Origin: Pseudomonas sp. TH10
Lineage (GTDB): Bacteria; Pseudomonadota; Gammaproteobacteria; Pseudomonadales; Pseudomonadaceae
DNA length: 41,213 nt
Assembly (NCBI RefSeq): GCF_016651255.1
Contig: NZ_JAEKEG010000059.1
Coordinates: 1 to 41,213 of the forward strand
Reading direction: 5' to 3'
Position numbers and translations under genes: made by a program. The notes below the pieces were generated by a model. That model was not told the DNA's origin and searched no databases. It saw only the letters and a program-made list of their open reading frames with translations. This document shows, piece by piece, positions 16,701 to 33,652 of the stretch (positions within the stretch are counted from its first letter, which is position 1; every line of letters starts with the position of its first letter).

Positions 16701-17848
16701 GTGAATGCATCAAAAAAATACCTGACCGATGCGGCGGTCCACCAGGCTCTGTTACTGGTCGATCTCACCGAAAAAAGCGCTCCCGAGCATGCCGTCCGAC
16801 TATTGCTCAATGAAATCCTTCAGCGCCTGGCTGCAAGCGGCTGGCCCCAGGCTCAACTACAGACAGGCCCACGCGTGGTGTCTGCCGAGGAAAACTACGG
16901 GTTGCTCGGCTATGACCCCGCTGAAATCACATTGGGCAGCGAACATACCCGTTGGGTCGATGAGCACTCTCTGTTGCGTACGCAAACCACCAGTCAGATT
17001 CCTTCTGCGCTGCAGCGTGCGGCTCGTAGTCGGCAGCCGGGGAGACGATATTGCTGGCCGCGCCCGGTATCACCTTTCGCCGAGACAGTCGTGACCGCTG
17101 GCATTGCGCGGAGCCGCATCAGATGGATATCTGGGTCCTCGGTGATCCGCAGCTGTCGACGCACGAGCATTTGCTGCGCCTGGTCGGCGATATTCTTCAG
17201 GCCGCCGTGCCTGAAAAACCATGGGTCTACAGCGACAGCCCGCATCACTACACCGAAGGTGGAATCGAAGTGAATGTGATAAATGACGGCGCTCCCGTCG
17301 AGGTCCTGGAGTGCGGTCGTATTGCACAATCGTTGTTGGAACGGTTGCAGATAGATCCATCGCGTCATGGTGGGTTGGCGCTCGGGATGGGGCTGGATCG
17401 GCTGACGATGCTGCGCAAAGGCATTCCGGATATTCGCTTGCTGCGGGATCAGAATGTACGGGTGCAGGCGCAGATGCACGATTTGAATCCATGGCGTGCG
17501 GTTTCGCGTTTGCCGTCGATTGCTCGTGATATTTCGCTGGCGGTCACACCGGGGTTGAGCGAAGAAGTGTTGACCGAAAAAATGTTACTCGCGGCCGGTG
17601 ACTGCGCCGAATGGATTGAGGAAATGCAGGTCAAGGGACGTTGGGGATTCGCTGACTTGCCTGTGCAGGCCGTCGAGCGTCTCGGGCTGTTGCCGGGCCA
17701 GGAGAATGTACTGCTCCGGGTGGTGCTTCGAGATTGTTCGCGATCGATCACGACGGCTGAGGCGAATGCCTTGTACGCGGATATCCAGTGCGCGTTGCAC
17801 GAAGGCGCACCCGGGGCGGGGTACAAGATGGATGTTTCGAAGGTTTGA
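16701..17848 (+). CDS. Single-chain PheS-like class II aminoacyl-tRNA-synthetase-related ligase (SrmL type; one-base frame break)
   Basis: The protein combines a class II synthetase core resembling phenylalanyl-tRNA synthetase alpha with a C-terminal anticodon-binding-like FDX-ACB domain normally found on the beta chain. Core signatures are EPHQMDIWVLGDP, EVLECGRIAQSLLE and the motif-3-like GLALGMGLDRLTMLRKGIPDIRLLRDQ. The FDX-ACB part starts SRLPSIARDISLAV. The first 115 residues lie in one frame and the rest in another. Adding one G to the run at 17039-17042 joins them (QPGETILLAAPGITFRRD), giving 382 residues. This layout matches what is called the PheS-related ligase SrmL in Pseudomonas, whose substrate is not known. 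GTG start; GAGGG lies nine bases upstream. It ends 46 bases from a MocR gene on the other strand. Confidence 0.78.
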
Positions 17849-17894: not shown

Positions 17895-19313
17895 CTATTC
17901 TTGTGGTTTATCCAGCAACCGGAAAAAGCGCTCGCGCACCTGGCTGCTGTCGCTGTGGGCGACGTTGAAGCGCAGGTGCTGGCCGGCGTCCGGGGCTTTG
18001 CTGAGCAGGGTGCCGGGGGCCAGGACCAAATCGATTTCCAGGCCTTTCCTGGCCAGGGTCTCGGCATGGTACCCATCAGGTAATCGGGTCCAGATGAACA
18101 ACCCCTCATGGGGCAACGATGACACCGAGCAACCGGCTTCTTCCAGCCAGCGGGTCACCCGGTTGCTCGAGTCGTAGAGCCGGTCCACGGTGCGGCGGGT
18201 GTGTTTGGCGTAGCTGCCGTCGCTGAGCATGTTGCAGACGATCTGCTCGGCCAGTTCCGAGGTCATGCCGCCGGCGGCCATCTTGAGCCCGATCATGCGT
18301 GCGGCCAGTGGCGGCGAAAGCACCGCGTAGCTGACGCGACTGTTGGCGGTCAGGGTCTTGGAGAAGCCGGACACATAGCTGACGTTGTCCAGCCCGCCTG
18401 CCGCCAGGCGCGGGGTACCTCGTTGTTGCAGGTCGCAATACAAATCGTCTTCGACAATGTGGAAGCCGTAGCGGTGACTCAACTCCAGCAAGCGATAGAC
18501 CTGCGCCGGCGAGAACGAGTGTCCGGTGGGGTTATGCAGACTGTTGTTGGTCATGTAGAGCACAGGCCGATGGGCAATGACTGTTCGCTCGAAAGCTTCG
18601 AGGTCCATGCCCTCGACACCCCGGTGGACGGTGACGACCTTGGCACCGTGCAAGGCCAGGTTGGTGTGCATGGTGAAGTAGCACGGGTCGTCGAGCAGCA
18701 CGGTGTCGCCGGGTTTGATCAGCAGGCGCATCAGCATATCGATGGCCTGCACGGTATTGGCGGTGGTGACGATCTGCTCCACCGGCACCTCGATGCCGAT
18801 GGCTGTCAGCTTGACCCGCAAGGCTTCGCGCAACGGCGGATAACCGGCGGCCACGCCGTATTCACCCATGCGCAGGGAGGCGTCGCGCAGGGTCCCGCGC
18901 ACGGCTTTGAGCAACTCATCGGCCGGTAGCCATGAGGAAGGCAGAAAACCTGCGCCGGGACGTAGTGCGCCGTTGTCCTGCAGCACAGCGCGGCGGACCA
19001 CGCTGAGCGTGTCCTGAGGCAGCAGGTCGGGGCCGGCATCCAGTTTGGGCATGGCGCTGGAGCGGTGTACGAAATGCCCCGAGCCCTGGCGGGAAACCAC
19101 CAGGCCCTTGGCACGCAGCCGATCCAGGGCGTCGACCACCGTGGACTTGCCCACATTCATCAGGTCCGAAAGCTCGCGAATGGGCGGCAGGCGGGAGCCG
19201 TGGGGCAGGCCGCCCTGGTTGATCGCCACCGACAGCTGATCGACGATCTGCTGCACTAGCGGTACGCCGGGCTGGAATTCGATGGCCGCGATGACTGCGC
19301 GTTGAACCTGCAT
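17895..19313 (-). CDS. MocR-type (GntR-aminotransferase fusion) transcriptional regulator 1
   Basis: The 472 residues start with a GntR winged helix-turn-helix (about 15-85: LVQQIVDQLSVAI, SRLPPIRELSDLMNVGKSTVVDALDRLRAKGLVVSRQGSGHFV). A fold-type I aminotransferase-like domain follows, with NNSLHNPTGHSFS, EDDLYCDL and the PLP lysine in SGFSKTLTANSRVSY. MocR proteins use PLP and its adducts with amino acids as effectors; they usually regulate an adjacent divergent operon and often themselves. This one is divergent from the MFS gene, with a perfect 8-bp inverted repeat between them. It is the left boundary of the accessory cluster. Frame intact. Confidence 0.92.
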   Translation of the reverse strand: MQVQRAVIAAIEFQPGVPLVQQIVDQLSVAINQGGLPHGSRLPPIRELSDLMNVGKSTVVDALDRLRAKGLVVSRQGSGHFVHRSSAMPKLDAGPDLLPQDTLSVVRRAVLQDNGALRPGAGFLPSSWLPADELLKAVRGTLRDASLRMGEYGVAAGYPPLREALRVKLTAIGIEVPVEQIVTTANTVQAIDMLMRLLIKPGDTVLLDDPCYFTMHTNLALHGAKVVTVHRGVEGMDLEAFERTVIAHRPVLYMTNNSLHNPTGHSFSPAQVYRLLELSHRYGFHIVEDDLYCDLQQRGTPRLAAGGLDNVSYVSGFSKTLTANSRVSYAVLSPPLAARMIGLKMAAGGMTSELAEQIVCNMLSDGSYAKHTRRTVDRLYDSSNRVTRWLEEAGCSVSSLPHEGLFIWTRLPDGYHAETLARKGLEIDLVLAPGTLLSKAPDAGQHLRFNVAHSDSSQVRERFFRLLDKPQE

Positions 19314-19335
19314 TTTACTGGTCTCTCCGGCAGTA

Positions 19336-19361
19336 AAGTTCGTTCGATTCTATACGAACTT
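19336..19361. promoter_or_regulatory. Candidate MocR operator between regulator and MFS operon
   Basis: A perfect inverted repeat, AAGTTCGT (19336-19343) and ACGAACTT (19354-19361), with a 10-base AT-rich spacer. Its left arm is 23 bases upstream of the regulator start. It lies in the only divergent promoter region of the left half of the cluster, where a self-regulating MocR protein would bind (inference). Confidence 0.6.
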
Positions 19362-19460
19362 GCTCTGATCAAGACAAGTGCTCTCTCTACCATCACCTTA
19401 CAGTCTTTCCTGATTGTCGGCGTTTTTGCTCGCACAATCATTTGGTTCCAGAGGTGTTGC

Positions 19461-20561
19461 ATGAGTATCGAGACAACGGCCGCCATCGCCAAACCGGTGA
19501 TCAACATCCGTCTGTTCACGATCCGGATCATTACCGCCGTGTCGTTGTTTGCCGTGCTGGGCAAGGCCAACGTCTGGCTCGACACCGCCACCAACAGCAT
19601 CCTTGCCCTGGGTTATCGGGCGTTATTATTGCTGCTGCCGTTGACGTTGCTGGTGCTGGGCCGTCGTTCCCTGAGCGTCACCCTGCTGTGCGCCGCCCTG
19701 GGGTTGGTGCTGCTGGCCGTCACCAGCAACCAGGGCATGGTGATGTTCGCTGCGGCGCTGTTTGCCTATGGCATCGCGATTGCCGGTTACCTGATCAAGA
19801 GCGAAGCGGCCCAGACCAAGGAGGGCGCAGCCTACAACCGGGTGGCGATGAACATGGGCAGCCTGCTGGCCGGGCTGATCCTGCTGTCGCCACTGCTGAC
19901 CCCGCCCCTGTTTTTCCTCGGTGCCGCCAGCTTTGTCCTGCTGTGCGTGCCCATCGCCATGGGCGCGACCTTCACCACCCAGTCAGCGGCAGCCAGTCCG
20001 GTGACACAGGACGGCAGTGGCTGGCGCAACAAACTGCCGTGGGCGATCGCCGGCATCGTCATGGGCATCAAGCTGTTTGGTGTGTTCTCGATTCTTCCGC
20101 AAGCGATCCTGCTCGAAACCGGTGAGTTGCCAGCGTGGTACGGCCTGATGCTGATCCTCAACAGCGCGGTCGTGGTGTTCGCCCAGGTGCCGGTGATGAA
20201 ACTCATCGAGCGCACGGGTCGCTTCAAGGTACTCGCGGTGATCGGAATCATCGTCGCAGGCTTTGTGGTGCTCTCGTCTCCCGCGGCCTTTCATGTGGAA
20301 ACCCTGATCGGCGCGTTGATTTGGGTGGCCTTGCTGTCCATCGCCGAGTGCGCCTTCAGCTACCTCGATTACTTCTCGGTCAAGCAGAACAACATGTTCG
20401 TCAAGGAAGTGTCTCTGGGCGTCGGCGCCGGGCTAACGGTGCTGATCATGCGGGTGGTGCCGGCGCCCTACAACGCCTTGTTGCTGGCCGCCATCGGCGC
20501 GGGCGGGATTCTGGCGTGGTACTGGCTCAACCGCACATCCAACGCGGCGCTGCACGACTGA
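19461..20561 (+). CDS. MFS-like transporter, probable exporter of the cluster product
   Basis: A 366-residue membrane protein with about 11 hydrophobic helices and short loops. It begins MSIETTAAIAKPVINIRLF and its segments include ALLLLLPLTLLVLGRRSL and VKEVSLGVGAGLTVLIM. A helical protein of this size with internal hydrophobic repeats fits the major facilitator superfamily, although the classical loop 2-3 motif is not evident. ATG 19461 has GAGG seven bases upstream. It is the first gene after the divergent operator, and the ATP-grasp gene follows after 42 bases, so it is most likely the exporter or importer dedicated to the pathway. Confidence 0.75.
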   Translation: MSIETTAAIAKPVINIRLFTIRIITAVSLFAVLGKANVWLDTATNSILALGYRALLLLLPLTLLVLGRRSLSVTLLCAALGLVLLAVTSNQGMVMFAAALFAYGIAIAGYLIKSEAAQTKEGAAYNRVAMNMGSLLAGLILLSPLLTPPLFFLGAASFVLLCVPIAMGATFTTQSAAASPVTQDGSGWRNKLPWAIAGIVMGIKLFGVFSILPQAILLETGELPAWYGLMLILNSAVVVFAQVPVMKLIERTGRFKVLAVIGIIVAGFVVLSSPAAFHVETLIGALIWVALLSIAECAFSYLDYFSVKQNNMFVKEVSLGVGAGLTVLIMRVVPAPYNALLLAAIGAGGILAWYWLNRTSNAALHD

Positions 20562-20603: not shown

Positions 20604-21884
20604 ATGAAGACGACGTCATGCGTAGTAGTGGTCGGGTACAACGGCAACCGGGTTCACGATATCCAGAAGCTGCGCGACCTCTGCAAGACGCTCTACAACG
20701 CAAGGCTGATCCTGGTGGTCGAGCGCATTGCCCCTGATGACGACCAGGTGGCGGACCACGTCTGCAGCGCTTCACTGGCGCCCGAGGATGTAACCGATTC
20801 CCTGGAACTGGTGGTGGGCTGCCTGGCGGTCGATCGCTGGAAACTGATCGGCGTGCTGCCGTTTTCCGACCGCGGGGTGTTGCTCGGCGCGGCCCTGGCC
20901 AGTCATTACGGACTCCCGGGTATCACGCCCAACGAAGCACGGGCGGGGCTGGACAAGCAGATTTTCCGCAAGCTCGAAGCCACCTCCAGCAAGGCTCCCG
21001 AAGATTACCGGCCAGTATTTTCAACCCGTGTCGAGAGCCTGGCAGAACTGCGCCAGCGGGTCGTCGAACTGGGTGGCAGGGCGTTCATCAAGCCCGCCTG
21101 TGAAGGTGCCAGTCGCGGCTGCCGGGTGATCCATCACCCGTCCGAATGCGACGAGGCATGGCAGGCACTCAAGCCTTATCGCAGTGGCGGCATCGTGCTT
21201 GAAGAATTGGTTCGCGATGCTCGGGAATACAGCTGGGACTATGTGGCCGGCAGCACCTGGATCACCGAGAAAACCACGACCGAAGGCGCCTTCCGGGCCG
21301 AGATCCAGCAGGTGGTGCCTGCGCCGTTGCAAGGTGATGCCCAGGCCCGCCTGGCAGCGGCGGGGCGGCACATGTCGGGGCTGGTCTCCTTGGACAACGG
21401 TGCCTACCACAACGAAATCTTCCTGCGCCCTGACCAGCTCACTTCGGCGGTGGAAACCAACATGCGCCCTGGCGGCATGCACATCTGGGACCTGGCGCGC
21501 ATTGCCTTTGTCGACTTCGACCCATGGGAGCGCTGGGTAAGGTGGGCCGTGGAGGGCCAGTGCGAGCGACAGGATCCGGTCGCGCGGGGTTACTGCGGCA
21601 TTCGCCTGCTCAGGGCGCCGGGTGGTGGCCTGTTGCGTGACCTTCCAGACATCGACGCCGTGGCGCGGATGCTCGGCATCGAGTTGGTGGCGGCCGTGTA
21701 TGAGCGGCGCATCGGCGACTCGGTGTCGGCGCTGGTCAAGGACAACACTTCATTTATCGGCCACATCGTCCTGTTCAACAAGGACTACGAGCAGCTCACC
21801 AGTGACTTGTTGCGCCTGGCCGAGGCGGTTGAAGTGCGCATGGAAGTCGCCTGCCTGGCGCCGCCCGCCAGAGCGATGGGCTGA
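20604..21884 (+). CDS. ATP-grasp ligase (carboxylate-amine ligase, L-amino acid ligase-like)
   Basis: A 426-residue protein with the three-part ATP-grasp architecture. The N-terminal domain is about 1-115 (VLPFSDRGVLLGAALASHYGLPGITPN). The ATP-binding part has Lys163 in GRAFIKPACEGASRG and VLEELVRDAREYS near 198. The Mg site has Glu271 in AYHNEIFLRP and Glu284/Asn286 in AVETNMRPGG. Such enzymes form an acyl phosphate and couple it to an amine; relatives of this length make dipeptides (BacD/YwfE type). It probably joins two pathway building blocks, or one block and an amino acid, in place of an NRPS. A perfect AGGAGG lies just before ATG 20604. Confidence 0.85.
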   Translation: MKTTSCVVVVGYNGNRVHDIQKLRDLCKTLYNARLILVVERIAPDDDQVADHVCSASLAPEDVTDSLELVVGCLAVDRWKLIGVLPFSDRGVLLGAALASHYGLPGITPNEARAGLDKQIFRKLEATSSKAPEDYRPVFSTRVESLAELRQRVVELGGRAFIKPACEGASRGCRVIHHPSECDEAWQALKPYRSGGIVLEELVRDAREYSWDYVAGSTWITEKTTTEGAFRAEIQQVVPAPLQGDAQARLAAAGRHMSGLVSLDNGAYHNEIFLRPDQLTSAVETNMRPGGMHIWDLARIAFVDFDPWERWVRWAVEGQCERQDPVARGYCGIRLLRAPGGGLLRDLPDIDAVARMLGIELVAAVYERRIGDSVSALVKDNTSFIGHIVLFNKDYEQLTSDLLRLAEAVEVRMEVACLAPPARAMG

Positions 21885-21911: not shown

Positions 21912-22406
21912 ATGTTTGAACAAACAACTTGTGATGAGCGCTTCCTCACCCTTGCCAAGGAGTTGGGTTACGACATCTACGGCGAAAACACTGCCGGCGG
22001 CCACTACGCGCCGTTGGTACGGCACCATGATGAGCTGTATATCAGCGGCATGGTGCCGCGCATGAATGGCAAGATCCAATACCCCGGACGGGTTGGCCTG
22101 GAGCTCAGCCTCAGTGATGCCCAGGCAGCCGCCAGCATCAGTGCCATGCGCGGGCTGGCGTTGATAGTGGATGCCATCGGTTCGCTGGATAAAATCAAGT
22201 CGCTGGTGCGGGTCACTGTGTACGTGAAATCCACCGCGGACTTTGTCGACCTCAGTGAAGTGGCCAATGGCGCATCGGACGTCTTCAGTCATGTGCTGGG
22301 GGATGCGGGTAAACATACAAGAACCACAGTTGGGGTTTATCAGTTGCCAAAGAATGCGGCGGTGGAAGTGGACATGATCGCAGCCTTGCGGCCTTCTGCG
22401 TTATAA
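21912..22406 (+). CDS. RidA family (YjgF/YER057c/UK114) protein
   Basis: The 164-residue RidA-fold protein keeps the catalytic arginine (Arg137 in KHTRTTVGVYQLPKNA) and the following acidic residue (Glu152 in AAVEVDMIAAL). RidA enzymes hydrolyse reactive enamines and imines released by PLP enzymes. In this setting it may deaminate or clear an imine from the aminotransferase or aminomutase, or act as a tailoring enzyme. It is longer than typical RidA (about 130), with an extra N-terminal stretch ending FLTLAKELGYDIYGENTAGG. It follows the ATP-grasp gene by 27 bases, with GAGAGG upstream of its ATG. Confidence 0.9.
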   Translation: MFEQTTCDERFLTLAKELGYDIYGENTAGGHYAPLVRHHDELYISGMVPRMNGKIQYPGRVGLELSLSDAQAAASISAMRGLALIVDAIGSLDKIKSLVRVTVYVKSTADFVDLSEVANGASDVFSHVLGDAGKHTRTTVGVYQLPKNAAVEVDMIAALRPSAL

Positions 22407-22488: not shown

Positions 22489-22955
22489 ATGGATAATGTT
22501 CAAGGTGCTTTTTTTCATATGACGAGTTTCGCCAGAGTTTGCATCAGCCGCCCCAGAGTGCGCGGGTATGGACGAGCGATAAACTTGCCGCAATGCGCGA
22601 AAGTCTTGCGGCCAGCGAAGTCGATATCGTCGCATTGGCCCACGACAGCAGCCTTGAAGGCTGCAAGTTGACACCGGGTGTGGCGGTGTCCATGCAATGG
22701 TTGAAACCCGGCGCTGTGTTGAATGGCCACGCCCATGGCTGGTGGCATCTGTTTGTCATACAGGCCGGCAGCGGCCTGCTGACCATGGGCGAGGATGACG
22801 AGGTGCGCGCCAGCACCGGCGACGTCCTGCTGGTGCCCGCCTGGACCCGACATGGCTTCGTCAACACCAGCACCACCGAGTCGATGGCCATGCTCAACAT
22901 GAGCAACATGCCGCAATTGGCGTTGCTTTCCAGTATGGCCAACGCAGTGAGCTGA
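22489..22955 (+). CDS. Small cupin-fold protein (frame break in a T run near the start)
   Basis: A single-domain cupin. The central segment LKPGAVLNGHAHGWWHLFVIQAG supplies the His-x-His and third His of cupin motif 1; GDVLLVPAWTRHGF is motif 2. The intact frame from a TTG at 22539 gives 138 residues but has no ribosome site. Adding one T to the seven-T run (22509-22515) links it to ATG 22489, which has GGAAGG five bases upstream. This gives 155 residues starting MDNVQGAFFSYDEFRQSL. Metal-binding cupins act as dioxygenases, isomerases or sensors; the role here is unknown. Last gene before a terminator, so it closes the left operon. Confidence 0.7.
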
Positions 22956-23085: not shown

Positions 23086-23157
23086 CAGTGCGTGAGCAAC
23101 TATCTAGCATCGACTCCAGTGCAACGGATTAATAGTCTTGATGCAAGGGAGTGGTCC

Positions 23158-23802
23158 ATGGAAAGTGCAAAGATAAAGTTGTACGTAGGGGCGGATTTTG
23201 TCAGTGCTTTTGCCATGTCGGCATTTGTGGCGCTGAAGGAAAAACAACTTCCGTTTGAATGTGTAACCCTTGATTTGGAAAGTAGAGAGAACTATCAGGC
23301 GAGTTATCGAGACCTGTCGATGACTTGTAAGATACCTACCCTGGTCCATGAAGACTTCGCGCTTTCAGAGTCTTCGGCCATTGCCGAGTACCTGGACGAA
23401 ATAGCGCCCGAGGGCCGAAAACTGTTCCCGGCAGACACCCGGCTACGCGCCCGGGCCCGCCAGCTTCAGGCCTGGTTACGCAGCGACTTGCTGATCATTC
23501 GCCGGGAGCGTCCGGCGGATCTCATCTACTTCGGAACAAAAGACACGCCCCTGTCCGAGGAGGCCCTGGTGGCCGTGGACCGATTGTTCTTCGTGGCCGA
23601 TCGCCTGCTCAAAGGCGGCGCCGATCACCTGTTCGGTGACTGGAGCATCGCTGATACCGACCTGGCAATCATGCTCAACCGCCTGCTTGCCAATGGCGAT
23701 CATGTGCCGGCGCGACTTGCCGCCTATGTTCGCCGGCAGTGGGACCGCGACAGCGTGCGGGCGTGGATGGACATCGAGCGCACAGCGCCGGCTGCCCAGT
23801 AA
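23158..23802 (+). CDS. Glutathione S-transferase, YfcF-like
   Basis: The 214 residues have an N-terminal thioredoxin-like domain (LYVGADFVSAFAMSAFVALKEK, KIPTLVHEDFALSESSAIAEYLDE, where the ESS turn binds glutathione). An all-alpha domain follows (RARARQLQAWLRSDLLIIRRERPADLIYFG, LFGDWSIADTDLAIMLNRLL). Overall it strongly resembles E. coli YfcF. It could conjugate or reduce an electrophilic or N-oxidised intermediate, or protect the cell. First gene of the second operon; ATG 23158 has AAGGGAG six bases before it, so in-frame codons further up are rejected. KamA follows after 29 bases. Confidence 0.9.
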   Translation: MESAKIKLYVGADFVSAFAMSAFVALKEKQLPFECVTLDLESRENYQASYRDLSMTCKIPTLVHEDFALSESSAIAEYLDEIAPEGRKLFPADTRLRARARQLQAWLRSDLLIIRRERPADLIYFGTKDTPLSEEALVAVDRLFFVADRLLKGGADHLFGDWSIADTDLAIMLNRLLANGDHVPARLAAYVRRQWDRDSVRAWMDIERTAPAAQ

Positions 23803-23831: not shown

Positions 23832-25172
23832 ATGCAGGGAATGTCGGAGCTGCACAGATACAAGCCCTATAACGCCCGGACCATCCGCGAGACGCCGTAC
23901 TGGCACAGGCTCACGCCAGCGTTACAGGAAGCCATGGACGTGGTCGCGCGGGTGATGCCGTTTCGCACCAACGAATACGTGCTGGAAACATTGATCGACT
24001 GGGACAACATTCCCGACGATCCGATTTTCCGCATGACTTTCCCCCACCCGGACATGCTGTTGCCGAAGGAGTATGTGTCGCTCAAGCAACTGATCGAGCA
24101 GGACGACGCTGCGGCCATCAAGCGCCGAATCGAAGCAATCTGGCTGCGCATGAACCCCCATCCGGCCGGCCAGCTGACCCATAACAGCGCAAGCCTGGAC
24201 GGTAAAGTCCTGCCGGGCATTCAGCACAAGTACCGGGAAACCGTGCTGTTCTTCCCTGGCGCCGGCCAGACCTGTCACGCGTACTGCACCTTCTGTTTTC
24301 GCTGGGCGCAGTTCATCGGTGAAGAAGAACTCAAGTTCAACGCCCGTGAGTCCCAGGAACTGGTGAGTTACCTGCGGGTGCACACCGAAGTCACTGACGT
24401 GCTGATCACCGGCGGTGACCCGATGATCATGAACACTCGCTCGCTGGCCGGTTACATCGAGCCGCTGCTGGAGTTGCCGCACCTGCGCAGTATCCGCATC
24501 GGTACCAAGTCGGTGGCTTACTGGCCGCAGCGGTTCGTCAGCGACAAGGATGCCCCCGAGCTGCTGGCACTGTTCCGGCGAATCGTCGCGGCAGGCAAGC
24601 ACTTGTCAGTGATGGGGCACTACAACCACCCGGTCGAGCTGCGCCAGGACATCGCCCGCCAGGCCGTCGAACGCATTCGCTCCACCGGCGCCGTGTTGCG
24701 CATGCAGGCGCCGGTGATCCGCCATATCAACGAAAACCCCGCCGATTGGGCCGAGCTCTGGACCGAAGGCGTGCGACTTGGCGCGGTGCCCTATTACATG
24801 TTCGTCGAGCGCGACACCGGCCCTCGTCATTACTTTGCAATGCCGCTGGCCCGGGCCTTCGAGATTTTCCAGGCGGCCTATCGCAGCGTGTCCGGGCTCG
24901 CCCGCACGGTGCGCGGCCCCTCGATGAGCACCTTCTACGGCAAGGTTCTGATCAACGGGATTGAAACCGTGGCCGGAGAAAAAGTCTTCGTGTTGCAGTT
25001 TCTCCAGGCCCGGGATCCGCAATGGGTGCTGCGCACCTTTCATGCGCAATTCGATCCCCACGCCAGCTGGTTCGATGACCTGCGCCCAGCTTTTGGCGAG
25101 CGGCGATTCTTCTTTCAGGACGAGCCGCTGGCTGCACCCGAATTGATACCGGTCCTGCTGGAAACGGCATAG
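23832..25172 (+). CDS. Radical SAM aminomutase, KamA family (substrate unlikely to be lysine)
   Basis: The 446-residue enzyme has the radical SAM cluster motif CHAYCTFC (Cys148, 152, 155), followed by Arg157, which corresponds to the carboxylate-binding Arg of lysine 2,3-aminomutase. Next come DVLITGGDPM (SAM-binding GGD) and the PLP lysine, likely Lys371 in RGPSMSTFYGKVLI. KamA enzymes move an alpha-amino group to the beta carbon through 5'-deoxyadenosyl radical and PLP. The two aspartates that hold the lysine side-chain amine appear replaced: by my hand alignment, Glu301 in RHINEN and Ser364 in RGPSMS. Another amino acid substrate is therefore likely (inference). It would supply a beta-amino acid to the pathway. 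ATG 23832 follows GGGAG; frame intact. Confidence 0.88.
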   Translation: MQGMSELHRYKPYNARTIRETPYWHRLTPALQEAMDVVARVMPFRTNEYVLETLIDWDNIPDDPIFRMTFPHPDMLLPKEYVSLKQLIEQDDAAAIKRRIEAIWLRMNPHPAGQLTHNSASLDGKVLPGIQHKYRETVLFFPGAGQTCHAYCTFCFRWAQFIGEEELKFNARESQELVSYLRVHTEVTDVLITGGDPMIMNTRSLAGYIEPLLELPHLRSIRIGTKSVAYWPQRFVSDKDAPELLALFRRIVAAGKHLSVMGHYNHPVELRQDIARQAVERIRSTGAVLRMQAPVIRHINENPADWAELWTEGVRLGAVPYYMFVERDTGPRHYFAMPLARAFEIFQAAYRSVSGLARTVRGPSMSTFYGKVLINGIETVAGEKVFVLQFLQARDPQWVLRTFHAQFDPHASWFDDLRPAFGERRFFFQDEPLAAPELIPVLLETA

Positions 25173-25196
25173 GACGATTCATCAGGAGACATGGAC

Positions 25197-26071
25197 ATGA
25201 GTGGCATCCCGTTTGATCAGCGCGAAGGGGTTATCTGGCTCGACGGCGAGTTCGTCGAATGGTCCCAGGCGCGCTTGCATGTGTTGACCCATGGTTTGCA
25301 TTACGCGAGCACCGTGTACGAAGGCGAGCGTGTGTACAACGGCAGAATCTTCAAGCTGCGCGAACACAGCGAGCGGTTGTATCGCTCGGCACAATTGATG
25401 GATTTCGTGATTCCCTATGAGCTGGCCGAACTGGAATCGGCCAGCCATGAACTGCTGCAGCGCAATCACGTGGTCGACGGATACGTGCGGCCGGTGGCAT
25501 GGCGTGGCAGCGAAATGATCTCGACTTCGGCCCGCTTCAATCGCGTGCACCTGGCGATCGCCTGCTGGCAATGGCCGAGTTACTTCGACCCGGCAGGGCA
25601 CATGGGCGGCATTCGCCTGAAGACCGCCGACTGGCGCCGGCCGCCCCCAGCAGTAGCCCGTTCGAAGCCAAGGCTTCGGGGCATTACCAGATCGCCACCC
25701 TGAGCAAGCACGATGCAGAAAACAACGGCTTTCACGATGCGCTGATGCTCGACTGGCGCGGCCATGTCGCCGAGGCCACCAGCGCCAACGTGTTCTTCGT
25801 CAAGGACCGGACGCTGCACACGCCGCTGCCCGACTGCTTCCTCAACGGCATCACCCGCCAGACCGTAATCGAATTGGCCGGGGCGCTGGATTACCAGGTG
25901 GTCGAGCGCACGATTCTTCCTACTGAGCTCAGCGACTTCGAGGAGTGTTTTCTGACGGGCACCGCTGCCGAAATCACCCCCGTGCGCAGCATTGACGAGC
26001 AGCGCTATCGCCCGGGCAACGCCTGTCGCGAATTCATTGCCGCCTACACCGCCACCGTCAACGCCGGATAA
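25197..26071 (+). CDS. Branched-chain-type (fold IV) aminotransferase, one-base frame break
   Basis: An IlvE/class IV PLP enzyme of 291 residues after repair. The N-terminal part has GVIWLDGEFVEW, LTHGLHYASTVYEGERVYNG and GYVRPVAWRGSE. The PLP lysine is Lys159 in FEAKASGHYQ, the same number as in E. coli IlvE. LDWRGHVAEATSANVFFV and CFLTGTAAEITPVRSID follow. The frame breaks in the C run at 25644-25648; one more C restores DWRRPPPSSSPFEAKA. Start ATG 25197 sits eight bases from AGGAG, better than ATG 25191. In the cluster it would interconvert an amino acid and 2-oxo acid, or act on the aminomutase substrate or product. TauD-like gene follows after 18 bases. Confidence 0.85.
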
Positions 26072-26089: not shown

Positions 26090-26845
26090 ATGTCCGATCA
26101 AGGGATTGCATTTAAAACTGATGTTTCACTGGGCCACCGCCACGAAGAATTGGCAGCACGGGGCTGGACAGTACTGACCGCCGACGAATTTGCCGATGAC
26201 GTGGTCGGCACCCTGCAGCAGTTCGGTCCGATCATTCCGCAGTTCAACGGCCAGACAGCGTTCGCGATTACGCGCAAGCCGGGCTACGAAGACCTGCCGT
26301 ACTCCCAGAGCATGAACGGTATCGGCCCGCACACCGAGGCACCGGTCTATGCTCCGCCGCCACGTTACCTGGCGTTGCATTGTCATCAACAGGCGACCTG
26401 CGGCGGCGGCCACACGGGCCTGGTCGACGGCTACCGGTTCCTGGCATTGCTGGAACGCACCGAGCCGCAGTTGCACCAGTGGCTCGTCGAGACGCCCGTG
26501 GAGTTCGTGGCCACGGCCAAGCCTGGGGAAGCCGCGCAACGGCGGGTTAAGGAATACATCCTGACGCCGACGCCAGACGGCGACATCTTCCGTTTCAGCT
26601 ACAACCAGTTTCACTACGGCGACGTCAATCCCTCCAAAGAAAATCTGCAGCAATCGCTGGTGGCCAACAGCACCTCGCCGCTGGCGCGGTTCGCGGTGCT
26701 GGGGGAAGCGTATTTCCTGGAGCACAACACCCCGGTGTTGATCCCGAACGGCTGCCTGCTGATTTGGGACAACTGGCGGATGATCCACGCCCGCAGTCGT
26801 TACACTGACCCGGCGCGCAACCTGACCCGCTACTGGCTGGCCTGA
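26090..26845 (+). CDS. TauD/CAS-like Fe(II)-dependent oxygenase
   Basis: A 251-residue protein of the taurine dioxygenase/clavaminate synthase-like superfamily. The facial triad is visible as His81-Thr-Glu83 (GIGPHTEAPVYAPPPRYLALHC) and distal His233 (WDNWRMIHARSRY). Arg243 or Arg247 (ARNLTRYWLA) is placed to bind the 2-oxoglutarate carboxylate. These enzymes hydroxylate, desaturate or cyclise substrates. HTE rather than HxA/G argues against halogenase activity. It is intact, in the same operon as the aminomutase and N-oxygenase, and likely oxidises carbon of the amino acid-derived intermediate (inference). Confidence 0.85.
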   Translation: MSDQGIAFKTDVSLGHRHEELAARGWTVLTADEFADDVVGTLQQFGPIIPQFNGQTAFAITRKPGYEDLPYSQSMNGIGPHTEAPVYAPPPRYLALHCHQQATCGGGHTGLVDGYRFLALLERTEPQLHQWLVETPVEFVATAKPGEAAQRRVKEYILTPTPDGDIFRFSYNQFHYGDVNPSKENLQQSLVANSTSPLARFAVLGEAYFLEHNTPVLIPNGCLLIWDNWRMIHARSRYTDPARNLTRYWLA

Positions 26846-26912: not shown

Positions 26913-27871
26913 ATGCAAACAGCCATCGAGATCGCCAAAGTCGATCATCAATTGATCGTGCGGCTCAACCAGGCATGGACCAAACGAGCCACGGTGTGTG
27001 CGCCGGACAAGTGGCAGGCCGGCGAAGCCTTCGACCCTGCGCGTCCGGATTACCCGGAGTGCATGGTGCCGTTTTTTCATCACCCGAAATTCCAGGCCCT
27101 GAGCGAGGAGCTCAAGAGCAGCGTGCTGACCTGGGGCTGGATCGGCTACAACCTGCGCACGGTCACGGCCGAAGAACATGTGGTAAACCCCGCATTGAGC
27201 GTCATCGCCAATCAATACCTGGGGCAGCATGACTGGCATTTTCGCGAGGCGATGCAGCAGACGCTGATCGACGAGCACTACCACACCCTGATGCACCTGC
27301 GCGCGATCGAGCGCACCCGGGTCGACCGCGCGCTGGACCAGACGCTGGACTTGCCGCCGTCGGTGACTTATCTGCGGCTGCTGGCCCTGCGCGAAGCATT
27401 GCCCGAACAGTGGCAGCGGGACCTGGCCTCGATCACTTTTGCAGTGGTGGCCGAAATCAGCGTCAATGCCTACCTGGATCTATTGGCGGACGACCAGAGC
27501 ATCCAGCCGCAAAACCGTCGCGTGGCCGAGCTGCACAATCGTGACGAGTATGCCCACAGCAAGGTCCTGGCCGAGGTGGCCAAGGTCATGTACGGGAACA
27601 TGCAGCCGCCGCAGCGGGAATTTTCGCCCGTACGTTGTCCGTGGCCCTGAGTGCGTTTGTCGCCCAGGACTACTCGATGTGGGAAGCGATCCTGACTCAA
27701 CTGGGGGTTGAGGACGCGGCGCTGATCATCGCCGACACCCGTGAGAGCAACCGTAATGCGACCATCATGCGCGACTACAGCGGGCTCCAGCGTCTGGCCG
27801 AGGACCTGGGTATCACCGGGCAAATCGATTTCGACTTCCGGCCGACGCTCAAGACCGCATCGGTGGCCTGA
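26913..27871 (+). CDS. AurF-like diiron N-oxygenase (one-base frame break)
   Basis: The protein resembles the p-aminobenzoate N-oxygenase AurF family, non-haem diiron proteins that oxidise amines to hydroxylamines or nitro groups. The ligand set is complete: Glu88 (or Glu87) in TAEEHVVNPA, Glu121/His124 in DEHYHTLMH, Glu181 in VVAEISVNAY, and His208/Glu212/His215 in LHNRDEYAHSKV. The frame breaks after residue about 235; adding one A to the pair at 27619-27620 yields REIFARTLSVALSAFVAQDY and 319 residues, close to AurF length. All metal ligands lie before the break. It suggests that the product has an oxidised nitrogen. MBL gene follows after 15 bases. Confidence 0.85.
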
Positions 27872-27886
27872 ATCAGGAGTTGCGCC

Positions 27887-28688
27887 ATGTCCGTTCCCGA
27901 GTACGAAGTGTTCGCCATCCGTGTCGGTGCCAATGCCCAGCGCACGGCACGGGAGAAATTTTCTGTACGACGCCTGTTGTGGTGATCCTGACGCGCCGAT
28001 GCCGCTGGATTATTACTTCTGGGTGATTCGCCATGAGCAACGCGTGATCGTGGTGGATACCTGTTTCCAGCCGGCCACCGCAGATCGGCGCAACCGTCAG
28101 ATGTATCGCTTGCCGGAAGAATCCCTACGCCAACTGGGGATTGATCCGGCGCAGGTCGACAACCTGGTCCTGACTCATCTGCACTGGGACCATGCCGGAA
28201 ACCTGGGTTTGTTTCCCAAGGCCACCGTGCACCTGCAGGAGGCGGAACTGCGCTTCTGCACCGGACCGAAAATGGCCCATCGCACGGTGAACAAAACCTA
28301 CGAAGTCGACGACGTGATGTCGGCGCTGCCGCCGCTGTTCGAGGGGCGCATGCGTTTGCACACTGGCACCGTCGAGGTCGCCGCCGGCGTGACCCTGCAT
28401 CCAGTGGGCGGGCACACGCCGGGCAGCCAGGTGGTGCGGGTCAATACCCGGCGCGGTTGGATTGTGCTGGCTTCGGACGCTGCGCATTTGTGGGTGAACA
28501 TTCGCCAGCGCAGTCCGTTTCCGATTATCGATGACCTGGCGCAAACGCTGGAAGCCTTCAACGAGATCGAGCGCCTGGCGGACGGCGAGGAGCACGTCAT
28601 CCCTGGCCACGACCCCCTGATCGCCGAGCGTTTTGCGCATTGGAATGATGACCCGCACATCATCTGCCTGCACGAAAACCCCAGCTGA
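27887..28688 (+). CDS. Metallo-beta-lactamase-fold hydrolase, lactonase-like (frame break in an A/T run)
   Basis: An MBL-superfamily enzyme of about 266 residues after repair. The dinuclear metal motif HLHWDHAGN is followed by GGHTPGSQVV, LASDAAHLW and IPGHDP, with spacing like that of N-acyl homoserine lactonases. The first 24 codons (MSVPEYEVFAIRVGANAQRT) are in one frame and the rest in another. Removing one A from 27956-27958 gives RENFLYDACC and an exact codon count; two missing A would also fit. It could hydrolyse a lactone or ester in the pathway, open a toxic product for self-protection, or quench quorum signals. AGGAG lies before the ATG. Last gene of the right operon. Confidence 0.8.
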
Positions 28689-28780: not shown

Positions 28781-30200
28781 TCACCTCTGGTTTTTCAGGA
28801 GTAGTCCCAGGGTCGCCACCGCCTCCTCGATCCTCGGCGTGAACGGCGCGCCACACGCGATTCTCAGGCAGTGCCCAAACCCCGGCCCATTGGAAAAGAT
28901 ATCCCCAGGCAAAATCTGAATACCCACCTTCAACCCCTCATGAAACAAACGCATCGAGGCATACCCAGGCGGCAATTCCACCCATAACAGGGTGCCGCCC
29001 TGCGGCTCGGTCACGCGGGTGTCTTGGGGAAAATGCCGCAGGATCGCGGTGTGCATCTGCTGGCGCTGCTGGGTCAGGGTGTTCCTCAGTCGGCGCAGGT
29101 AACGTTCGTAGGACGGCGTCTTCATGAACGCACTCACCGCCAATTGCGACAGCGCCTCACACCCCTCGACTGGCTGTGCTTGAGCATCTCCACCCGGTCG
29201 TGCCAGCGCCCGGCACTGATCCAGCCCAGGCGCATCCCCGGCGCGAGGGTCTTGTTCAGCGAGGCGCAGTAGATCAGGTTGTCGCTGCGGTCCCAGTGTT
29301 TCAGCGTGGACAACGGTTGCTCGGTGTCCACCAGGTCGCCGTAGGTGTCGTCCTCGATCAGCACCGTGGCGTGCTCGGCGCACAGTTGCACCAGTCGGGC
29401 CTTGTGCGAGTCGGGCATGATGCTGCCCAGGGGGTTTTGCAGATTGGGTATCACGATCACGGCGCAGATCCGTTCAGCACCTCGTAGTAATTGTTCCAGG
29501 GCAAACAGATTGATCCCGCAGTGCGCCGTTGCCGGCACCTCGCGCACCCGCAGATTAAGGCTTTCGAGAATCTGCAGCAGGCCGTGGAAGGTTGGCGACT
29601 CGACGGCAACCGTATCACCGGGCTGGGTGACGGCGCGCAGGGCCAGGTTAAGCGCCTCGGTGGCGCCGTTGGTGATCACGATCTGCTCGGCGCTCAGGTG
29701 GGTTTTGCTGGTCAGGGCGCGGCGAGCGAGGATGTTGCGCAGTGCGAGGTTGCCGCTGGTGGGCGCGGTGGTGCCCAGCAGCTGTTGATTCTGACGCAAC
29801 GCCTTGACCATGTGGTCCTGCAGGGTCTTCAGCGGGTAGAGCTGCGGCGCGCAATAAGGGTTGGCGAAATTGACTTTGATCGTCGCTCGCTGGCTCGCCT
29901 TGAGTACCGACGACACCTGTTGGTGAATGCCGACGTATGCATCGGCAGCCAGCGGCGGCGGTGGCAGGGGTGGGGCAGGGGTTCCGGCTGGCGAATATAG
30001 TTGCCCGAGCGCGGACGCGCCTCCAGCACCCCCTGGCCCTCCAGCTCCCGGCACACCTGCACCGCAGTCGACAGGCTGACCGCGTGCTTCTCCATCATCA
30101 GGCGGATCGACGGAAAGCGTTCGCCGGTTTTCAAGGTGCCGCTGCGGATCGCGTCGAGGTAGTGATTGGCTAACTGACGGTACAGGGGAAGTGTGTTCAT
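28781..30200 (-). CDS. MocR-type transcriptional regulator 2 (two one-base frame breaks)
   Basis: A second GntR-aminotransferase fusion. The N-terminal wHTH (PLYRQLANHYLDAI, ERFPSIRLMMEKHAVSLSTAVQVCRELEGQGVLEARPRSGNYI) is joined by a proline-rich linker to an aminotransferase-like domain. That domain has ITNGATEALNLALRA, IPNLQNPLGSIM, EDDTYGDLV and PLP lysine in CASLNKTLAPGMRLGW. Restoring one base in the G runs around 29967-29981 and one in the C run 29162-29165 gives about 473 residues. Start ATG 30200 is in the right place for the helix-turn-helix. It faces the MBL gene convergently and forms the right edge of the cluster. It resembles the first MocR only at family level. Confidence 0.8.
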
Positions 30201-30539
30201 GCAGGCCTCAGCAGTTGCACCACTGAGGTCGGGGCTGGACAGTGAGTAGACGCTCCCCGCAGGCGGACCCATGGTGCTCGAGGGTTAAGGGAAGTGTTAG
30301 TGCTGATTCGATACTGGAACAGTAGTCGCGGACTTGCCTGAATCGCAGGCAATAAAAAGCCCCGCACAGGGGCGGGGCTTGGGAGAAACACGAGCTGGCG
30401 AAAAAGCCTGCAGCTTGCTCGCGCTTGAGTGGGCAGCACTCAAAAAAGAAGCCGTGCTGCCACTATTACGCGGCCGCTACGCAATCCAGGGGCGCGAGCT
30501 CCCGCGCCACGGGGAGGGCGCTGCGCTGCGGGAGGTGTG
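30201..30539. other. Gap between MocR 2 and the next minus-strand gene
   Basis: Contains a short palindrome TACTG-GAA-CAGTA (30312-30324), about 110 bases upstream of the MocR gene, and the terminator of the following minus-strand gene. Frames through 30420-30540 look non-coding. Confidence 0.5.
30357..30380 (-). terminator. Rho-independent terminator (minus strand)
   Basis: Read on the minus strand, AAGCCCCGC (30380-30372) pairs with GCGGGGCTT (30365-30357) and is followed by a T run. It lies about 160 bases after the stop of the 233-residue minus-strand gene. Confidence 0.85.
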
Positions 30540-32136: not shown

Positions 32137-33652
32137 TCAGACCTTTCCCGGCGTATTCAGATTCATCGACCGCACCGCCAATTGCGTGGCAACTTCCTCA
32201 TCCACTGGCAACGAAAACACCAACGTCGCCCCTTGGCCCGGCACATCCAGCAAACGAATCTCGCGGCCATGCAACTGCAGAATCCGCTGCACAATTCGCA
32301 ACCCCAATCCGCCATCCCGCCGCGCGCCGCCAATGTTGAACGGCCGCAGAAACAACCCCTCACGTAACTGCGCAGCAATCCCCGGGCCGCTGTCACTGAC
32401 CGTGATCTCGACGAACCCGCCCTGCGGGACCAGGCTGATGCTGATGATTCCGCCCACCGGCGTATGGCGCAGGGCGTTATCGAACAGGTTGGTCAGCACC
32501 CGCTCGATCAGCCCCAGGTCGGCAAAGACCCCGGACACCGTTGACGCAAAGTTGGCCTTGAGTTGCACCTGGCGCGCTTCGGCGGTCAGTTCGAACTTCT
32601 GGAAAATGTCCTGCACCAGGTCGGTCAAGGAAAACCGCTCCAGCACGGGCTGCACAAATCCATGCTCCAGCCGCACCAGCTCCAGCAGCGACTGTGCCAG
32701 CCCGCCAACCTTGCGGCTCTGATCCAGGGCGATGCCCAGGTAACGGCGGCGGTCGGCCACCGACAAGCGTCGCGTCCTTGAGCGACAAGGTTTCCAGATA
32801 ACCATGCAACGACGCCAGGGGCGTGCGCAGGTCGTGGGAGATGTTCGCCACCAGCTCGCGCCGCTCCTGGTCCTGGCGAGTCAACGAGCGCCATTGTTCG
32901 CTCAGGCGCGCCTGCATCTGGCGGAAGGCGGCGTCGAGTACGGCGATTTCGTCATGGCTGGCGGCTTTTTCCACGGGTGCCGGGGGTGTTTGCGGCATGC
33001 CATCGATATCGAACTGGCTGACGTTCGCGGTCAGGCGCCTCAAGGGCCGGGTGATCAGCGAGAAGGCCGCGAGACCGGCGATCAGGCATAGCAACGCCAC
33101 CAGCCCGATTGACCACAGGGCCGTGTTCAGCGCCGCGCTGGTGGCGCCTTGTTCGGCGAAGCGGTCATGTTCCTCGCCGAGCAGTACCACATAGAGGTAG
33201 CCAACCGGCTTGCCATCGACCTTCAACGGCGCGGCGCTGAACACCTTACGCCCTTCAATGCTGCGCGGGTCATCGCCAAGGATCGGCAGAGGTTGATCGT
33301 TGAGCAGTTGGCGGATCGGCGCCAGATCGACCTGCTGCCGACGAAGCCGGCCCTCGGGTGCGGCATTGCCGACGATCCGCCCCTCGGTGTCGAGCAGATA
33401 CACCTCGACACTCGGGTTGACCAGCATCAACTGACTGAACAGTTCGCGCACGGCACCGGGCATCAGGCCATTGCTGTCCATCAGCACCGTGTCGTGGGCG
33501 ATGTGTTGCGCCAGATCCCTCGACAGCCCCTGCACCACCTCCAGCTCATGCATCTGACTGGAACGCACTTGCAGCCATGCCGAGGTGCCGCAGCACACCA
33601 GCAGCAACACGGCGAAAACGATGGACAGGCGCTGCGTCAGGGTCAATTTCAT
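32137..33652 (-). CDS. Sensor histidine kinase (one-base frame break)
   Basis: A membrane kinase of about 504 residues after repair. TM1 is about residues 8-26; a periplasmic sensor region follows (27-175, with EVYLLDTEGRIVGNAAPEG and YLYVVLLGEEHD), then TM2 about 178-201. A HAMP linker comes next, then HisKA with His273 in VANISHDLRTPLASLHGY. The HATPase domain has NLFDNALRHTP (N box), DSGPGI (G1) and GLGLRI (G2). The frame changes near 32764-32770, between LETLSLKDAT and DRRRYLGIALDQ; one extra base there, or two missing, explains it. The start overlaps the stop of the response regulator by four bases (ATGA). The pair is divergent from msrB-msrA. Confidence 0.87.

Follow-up and report, generated by a model that had tools for sequence, protein, structure and literature searches.

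The 2005 paper by Lepore on the lysine 2,3-aminomutase structure 2a5h reportedly places D293 and D330 in contact with lysine and has Arg134 bind the carboxylate. Replacement of this Asp/Asp pair by Lys/Asn is given, in the accessible part of the SFLD paper, as the mark of glutamate 2,3-aminomutase (PMC3965090). A further enzyme, IdnL4 of incednine biosynthesis, is presumed to be a glutamate 2,3-aminomutase; the available portions of a review back this by disruption of idnL4, state that no activity of IdnL4 was seen in vitro, and describe IdnL3 as a beta-glutamate beta-decarboxylase and IdnL1 as a 3-aminobutyrate-selective ligase (PMC11284099). The same gene pair is reported, in the accessible text of a second source, from producers of salinilactam, micromonolactam, lobosamide, pretilactam, silvalactam and mirilactam (PMC9230918). 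The starter of incednine- and pretilactam-type macrolactams is thought to come from beta-glutamate. For pretilactam, the gene table in the part of the report available to us lists a P450 (395 aa), PlmK (450 aa), a PLP enzyme (419 aa), an acyltransferase (308 aa), ligases of 507 and 529 aa and a peptidase (296 aa); the same part names a deposited A. mirum PlmK homologue as an L-lysine 2,3-aminomutase (PMC6631532).

Here we describe a KamA-family enzyme encoded in a 41,213-nucleotide stretch of DNA from Pseudomonas sp. TH10, referred to below as the window. Our preferred reading, in which we infer both the substrate and the reaction, is a glutamate 2,3-aminomutase of the IdnL4/PlmK lineage that lies in a conserved 12-gene Pseudomonas cluster, and we give this reading a probability of roughly 0.55. 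We know of no activity for any member of the clade to which the enzyme belongs.

The enzyme and its side-chain pocket

The aminomutase gene is a single open frame on the forward strand (23832–25172), running from an ATG at 23832 to a stop codon at 25170–25172 and encoding 446 aa. C148, C152 and C155 form a CX3CX2C motif, R157 and K371 match KamA Arg134 and the KamA PLP lysine, respectively, in the alignment. Motif and alignment thereby bear out an earlier note on this DNA, which had described the radical SAM cysteines, Arg157 and Lys371 as kept, and STFYGK does stand in place of GGGGK around the PLP lysine as that note had said. The closest curated models are those of the KamA family, though the enzyme falls below all of the NCBIfam cut-offs: the broad-family model TIGR00238 gave 134.6 bits (E 3.7e-39) against a cut-off of 199.2, lysine 2,3-aminomutase (TIGR03820) 109.6 against 525.4, AblA_like_2 104.6 against 396.25, glutamate 2,3-aminomutase (TIGR04368) 98.3 against 650, EpmB (TIGR03821) 95.8 against 369.3 and arginine 2,3-aminomutase (TIGR04468) 93.2 against 600. 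A Pfam search of the enzyme found no family at E <= 0.001. The lysine 2,3-aminomutase 2a5h is the sole solved relative by sequence (E 1.1e-22) and is also the best solved match (Z 35.0, rmsd 3.7, 342 residues; next row Z 15.6) of an AlphaFold model built from a 60-row alignment (mean pLDDT 89.1). The CX3CX2C motif, the substrate-carboxylate Arg, the PLP Lys and this computed KamA fold place the enzyme in the broad KamA family of radical SAM/PLP proteins.

The source genome (4.98 Mb, 179 contigs, 78% complete) holds one match to the enzyme and one to the lysine-enzyme model. Among the relatives listed, which may omit records very near the source genome, the nearest named one is the protein of Pseudomonas gregormendelii (L016), at 98% identity. 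The aminomutase gene is under purifying selection, with dN/dS of 0.07–0.13 against nine Pseudomonas relatives.

The side-chain positions were read from an alignment of 81 clade members (that of the window and those of 80 genome loci) with eight lysine, eight glutamate and six arginine enzymes, each of these references scoring above its own curated cut-off; the alignment also holds three KamA-like proteins (L096–L098) and one Pantoea paralogue. At the Asp293 position every clade member has Arg (81/81), the lysine and arginine enzymes have Asp (8/8 and 6/6) and the glutamate enzymes have Lys (8/8). At the Asp330 position the clade has Ser in 80 of 81 members and Cys in one, whereas the lysine enzymes have Asp (8/8), the arginine enzymes Thr (6/6) and the glutamate enzymes Asn (8/8). 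Twenty actinobacterial (Actinomycetes) members agree, with Arg327 in all 20 and Ser364 in 19, the remaining one (L175) having Val. This conservation of Arg327 and Ser364 is not a matter of chance. E326 (76/81) and D328 (77/81) flank R327, and W158, R290, R358 and R361 are peculiar to the clade, R290 being an extra Arg that is not found in the sampled lysine, glutamate or arginine enzymes.

A ten-member clade profile aligns with 2a5h without gaps and sets Arg327 on Asp293, and profile–profile alignment with hhalign against the eight lysine and eight glutamate enzymes gives the same register, with PYYMFVERDTG of the clade facing PYYIYQCDLS of the lysine and PYYIFHAKTV of the glutamate enzymes. 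The hhalign alignments stop near residue 359, and the pairing of Ser364 with Asp330 rests on MAFFT and on equal spacing, the distance from SG (354–355) to K371 being the same, without a gap, in the window enzyme and in the lysine and glutamate enzymes. A single-sequence phmmer alignment instead sets Glu326 at Asp293; we rejected this register as weaker because it needs one insertion and one compensating deletion, where the profile alignments need no gap.

The earlier note had equated Asp293 with Glu301. This is wrong, as the ten-member profile, MAFFT and hhalign all place Arg327 there; Glu301, in HIN-E-NP, aligns with the Asp or Asn that directly follows the conserved Asn300, a position occupied in the clade by E (48), D (31), T (1) and N (1) among 81 members and in the eight lysine enzymes by D (7) and N (1). 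Its pairing of Asp330 with Ser364 stands on the MAFFT alignment and the spacing, and its claim that the lysine clamp is lost also holds, with Arg327 and Ser364 at the two Asp positions. The reasoning by which the note set lysine aside was partly at fault, because Glu, had it occupied the first position, would have left that position acidic and able to bind an amine; the part that relied on Ser364 at the second Asp survives. Its conclusion that lysine is probably not the substrate is supported by the Arg/Ser pocket, by the position in the tree (below) and by the score of 109.6 against 525.4 bits. On the register adopted here, the charge at the first clamp position is reversed relative to the lysine enzymes, and the Arg327/Ser364 pair is the same kind of swap as Lys/Asn, made with other residues. 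The placement of Arg327 therefore shifts the prediction from a substrate that is unknown but not lysine to one that is probably an acidic amino acid, with glutamate as the first candidate.

A separate clade and its cassettes

Two degenerate peptide patterns were used to scan the genome_contigs collection (84,980 species genomes by its description), yielding at least 593 matching stretches, of which at least 589 code for a relative; one gene may match more than once. The 80 distinct loci that were kept (53–98% identical) span Pseudomonas, Burkholderiales, Enterobacterales, Streptomyces, Chloroflexota, Planctomycetota, Bacteroidota and others. A clade member (best match about 49–100% identical) is present in 25 of 194 relatives' genomes, a match of any kind at E <= 0.001 in 84 of the 194, and a clade member at E <= 1e-60 in 50 of 394 Actinomycetes genomes. 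The clade and the Pseudomonas cluster are not described in titles or the starts of abstracts among the matches listed from the open-access literature, which is no proof of absence.

A maximum-likelihood tree was computed from 60 sampled rows, comprising 23 of the 81 clade members, seven of the 20 actinobacterial members fetched, and a further 30 rows. The 30 sampled clade rows form one side of a 100/100 branch, opposite separate groups of lysine, glutamate and arginine enzymes, and the one EpmB-like row sits on a long branch apart from the clade. The earlier note had proposed a phylogeny against these aminomutases as a check, and the enzyme falls outside all three groups. At 6.0, the branch leading to the clade is very long; the program gives a warning of long branches meeting, and the root was set at the midpoint. 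Because of this length and the arbitrary root, a separate origin of the Arg and Lys solutions is something that we infer from the tree.

The window enzyme shares with KamA (2a5h, TIGR03820) the fold (Z 35), CX3CX2C, the carboxylate Arg and the PLP Lys, but lacks both clamp aspartates and the GGGG motif, carries insertions at 144–145 and W158, and is 22% identical to L118. Clostridial glutamate 2,3-aminomutase (TIGR04368) resembles it in the cofactor motifs, in a basic residue at Asp293 and in a neutral polar residue at Asp330, but forms a separate group with Lys/Asn rather than Arg/Ser (22% identity to L104). Arginine 2,3-aminomutase (TIGR04468) and EpmB (TIGR03821) share the KamA-family core, but have Asp at the first clamp position in the rows compared and stand apart in the tree, the pair in the arginine enzymes being Asp/Thr.

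Proteins of the VinK family (E <= 1e-8) are encoded in six of the 50 Actinomycetes genomes that hold a clade member. In three of these (G716, G790 and G851) the VinK domain lies 1.8–2.1 kb from the aminomutase; in the other three it is on another contig or far from it. One such locus, L189 (G790), has a P450-like frame of 395 aa, the aminomutase (464 aa), a class I aminotransferase-like protein of 418 aa, a VinK-bearing frame, ligases of 514 and 545 aa and a hydrolase-like frame, the P450 and hydrolase being named by eye. Next to the aminomutase this gene set repeats that of pretilactam, with names assigned partly by eye, and L175 (G851) has a similar set, in which VinK_C is matched at E 4.5e-31 and an alpha/beta hydrolase occurs. 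Because the gene sets of L189 and L175 resemble the pretilactam table, PlmK-type enzymes very probably belong to the clade, the membership of IdnL4 and PlmK being judged from gene order and sizes.

The VinK-linked enzymes of L175, L189 and L190 share the clade with the window enzyme (L175 by the tree, L189 and L190 by alignment and identity). They resemble it in this, in keeping R327 and in similar length to judge from PlmK (450 aa), but are 48–51% identical to it and have Tyr290/Val364 where it has Arg290/Ser364; these figures describe the VinK-linked enzymes and not IdnL4 or PlmK themselves. The window enzyme falls in one lineage with the aminomutases of incednine- and pretilactam-type macrolactam cassettes, and not with the clostridial lysine and glutamate 2,3-aminomutases.

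A fourth cassette, L172, has a ligase 60–62% and an aminotransferase-like protein 64–65% identical to those of the VinK cassettes. The ligase is closest to 5jjq (E 4.7e-204), with the stretch FDFSLLDIGLALGSGATVVPVP common to both; 5jjq is, in the part of the source available, IdnL1 with (3S)-3-Aba (PMC11253843). The L172 aminomutase has R290, R327 and S364, which is exactly the pocket of the window enzyme. VinK has no match in the L172 genome (G569), and L172 need therefore not be a macrolactam locus. As a gene neighbourhood at one locus, L172 points to glutamate as the substrate of the window enzyme, and is the best evidence for it.

Substrate and alternative readings

Under the preferred reading of glutamate 2,3-aminomutase, a [4Fe-4S] cluster on C148/C152/C155 would cleave SAM to give a 5'-deoxyadenosyl radical, while the substrate would form an aldimine with the PLP held by K371. 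R157 would hold the alpha-carboxylate, and R327 and S364 would hold the side-chain carboxylate, replacing the two aspartates that grip the ammonium of lysine. Hydrogen abstraction at C3 would be followed by an azacyclopropylcarbinyl intermediate through which the nitrogen shifts, and in Pseudomonas the product would enter a pathway of oxidation and ligation.

A reversed charge would suit any acidic side chain, and R327 could bind the carboxylate of aspartate, 2-aminoadipate or a side-chain-acidic intermediate; R290 and the differing 290/364 pair of the VinK-linked enzymes could mark such a different acid. The L172 aminomutase has the R290/R327/S364 pocket beside an IdnL1-like ligase and a cassette aminotransferase-like gene, which argues for beta-glutamate, although G569 is without VinK, and we regard another acidic alpha-amino acid as rather unlikely. 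A neutral or larger substrate would be conceivable if R327 were salt-bridged to Glu326 or Asp328 and made no contact with the substrate, since both acidic residues are largely conserved beside it (76/81 and 77/81) and neighbouring genes do not prove what the substrate is. Against this stand the invariance of Arg327 (81/81), the Lys at the same place in all eight glutamate enzymes and the contact between D293 and substrate that is said to occur in 2a5h, and this reading is distinctly unlikely.

The deep separation of the clade, with its own W158, R290, R358 and R361, would also suit a PLP/radical SAM enzyme whose reaction is not a 2,3-amino shift but, for example, a radical elimination or racemisation, and the accessible incednine text, with no in vitro activity for IdnL4, fits this as well (PMC11284099). 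The CX3CX2C motif, carboxylate Arg and PLP Lys are nonetheless all kept, and incednine genetics, as given in the same text (PMC11284099), demand an aminomutase, which makes another chemistry improbable. Least probable by far is that the enzyme acts as a lysine or arginine 2,3-aminomutase or as EpmB, its pocket being unusual: the KamA-family models are the closest curated ones, but the scores are far below the equivalog cut-offs, the enzyme lies outside those groups of the tree, and Arg and Ser occupy the clamp. Lysine and arginine were rejected as substrates on pocket, score and tree.

If the glutamate reading is true, widespread KamA-like genes would form a separate acidic-amino-acid lineage recognisable by RDTG (327–330) and RGPSMS (361–366), and would offer a clean test of the way in which one fold has on two occasions, with Lys and with Arg, put a basic clamp in place of a carboxylate clamp.

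Gene order at stand-alone members was tried as a clue to substrate and proved uninformative in the six of 20 fetched actinobacterial neighbourhoods that were read (L157, L158, L165, L166, L168 and L169). By eye, a plsX-like gene adjoins the aminomutase in five of the six, usually followed by an argS-like gene; an argS-like gene, also named by eye, lies near the aminomutase in L157.

The Pseudomonas gene cluster and its variants

The aminomutase gene lies in a run of 12 genes bordered by two MocR-type regulators (Table 1). The same order is kept in 14 loci (the window and L016–L028; aminomutases at least 89% identical), where the gene caller recovered ten of the twelve genes in 14/14, the aminotransferase in 13/14 and the GST in 11/14; the caller, which uses codon usage, missed the GST in three and the BCAT in one of these Pseudomonas rows. 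All twelve genes are also present in a further genome (L188).

Table 1. Genes of the cluster in the window, from left to right border
Gene product	Position	Strand	Remarks
MocR-type regulator (GntR + class I aminotransferase), left border	17895..19313	-	Pfam on L016 orthologue
Membrane transporter-like protein	19302..20561	+	MFS label by eye
ATP-grasp-type ligase	20604..21884	+	Weak sub-cut-off matches to L-amino acid ligase C-domain and D-Ala ligase models
RidA/YjgF family protein	21912..22406	+	Domain match
Small cupin	22539..22955	+	Domain match
Glutathione S-transferase (GST) family protein	23092..23802	+	Domain match
KamA-family radical SAM/PLP aminomutase-like enzyme	23832..25172	+	C148/C152/C155, R157, R327 (= KamA Asp293), S364 (= Asp330), K371 (PLP lysine)
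Class IV aminotransferase (BCAT-like)	25191..26071	+	Two frames via single-base indel; intact in L016
TauD-family Fe/2-oxoglutarate dioxygenase	26090..26845	+	HTE motif in L016 orthologue
AurF-family diiron N-oxygenase-like protein	26913..27650	+	Shortened by single-base indel; 319 aa in L016
Metallo-beta-lactamase-fold (MBL) hydrolase	27741..28688	+	HLHWDH in L016; single-base indel vs L016
Second MocR-type regulator, right border	28781..30272	-	Several frames in draft; intact in L016

The transporter gave no Pfam or NCBIfam match, nor its L016 orthologue a Pfam match, and the L016 AurF orthologue carries EHYH and EYAH. No PKS was found in the Pseudomonas cluster, and no gene of the type at the IdnL3 position was recognised there. 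In this cluster the beta-amino acid probably serves as a building block for oxidation and ligation; if so, a compact and conserved set of genes that includes an AurF-like oxygenase along with an ATP-grasp-type ligase would be a target for product discovery. A gentisate-pathway-like reading of the cupin, GST and hydrolase was too weak and was dropped (cupin E 1.7e-6, 27.2 against 442.1 bits).

Related arrangements occur elsewhere. Trinickia terrae (L034) keeps a MocR regulator, the aminomutase, class IV aminotransferase, TauD, MBL, cupin, MFS-like protein and GST, and carries an Ldh_2-type dehydrogenase; AurF has no match at this locus. The aminomutase is accompanied by a member of one and the same flavoprotein cluster in Burkholderia (L035), Caballeronia (L050), Paracidovorax (L033), Pseudorhodoferax (L052), Pantoea (L060) and Rahnella (L061), and likewise in Streptomyces (L063, L064) and in the further Pseudomonas loci L045 and L178. 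MBL, cupin, GST and a transporter are present at some of these loci and absent from others; PF13454 was tested in the flavoproteins of L060 and L178. It is possible, and we suggest it tentatively, that the clade is a second, independent and widespread lineage of glutamate 2,3-aminomutase (Arg/Ser against Lys/Asn) that feeds beta-glutamate to a family of natural-product clusters not yet described, spread over Pseudomonas, Trinickia, Burkholderia, Pantoea/Rahnella and Streptomyces. In these clusters either TauD and AurF or a PF13454 flavoprotein would oxidise the beta-glutamate, and after ligation it would leave the cell as part of a small molecule.

Several further features of these loci were recorded. 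Against a 95%-identical stretch of L016, the window has single-base indels at 16701–17848, 25191–26071, 26913–27650, 27741–28688, 28781–30272 and 32140–33652; the genes concerned include an ordinary sensor-kinase-like region, and the aminomutase gene has none. Because the genome is 78% complete and in 179 contigs, these look like draft sequencing error more than decay. Beside the cluster lies a lone class II tRNA synthetase core (PheRS-alpha-like, PF01409; window 16701–17848), intact in L016 (2776–3921, 382 aa) and listed in the window, L016 and L018 only, which is possibly a paralogue or a self-protection gene.

Other KamA-like proteins also accompany clade members. Two Pseudomonas loci, L176 (5180–6289 and 10991–12454) and L177 (6519–7865 and 12749–13984), have a KamA-like protein about 5 kb from the clade member that groups with arginine 2,3-aminomutases in the tree. 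In Pantoea L060 (5244–8654) a 2-hydroxyacid dehydrogenase, a different KamA-like protein with Gln at the first and Asp at the second clamp position, and an ATP-grasp-like ligase lie beside the clade member, and this cassette recurs elsewhere in the same genome (L187).

A large protein, with a FAD/NAD-binding PF13454 domain as tested in L060 and L178, adjoins the aminomutase in L060 (12038–14005), L035 (12168–14240) and L178 (5972–8497) and may replace TauD/AurF as the oxidising component; in L060 it is followed by a weak, sub-cut-off YfbR-like HD match. An asparagine-synthase-like protein (PF00733 and an amidotransferase domain) directly adjoins the aminomutase of Pseudomonas L178 (10223–12073), where a beta-amino acid could conceivably be amidated or closed into a ring. 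Finally, in L032 (3433–8348) the aminomutase shares its locus with a LysR-like gene, a class III aminotransferase, a CMD-family protein and a 4Fe-4S ferredoxin. The class III aminotransferase beside the aminomutase in L032, L036 and L071 suggests breakdown of a beta-amino acid, in L032 with a dedicated reductant.
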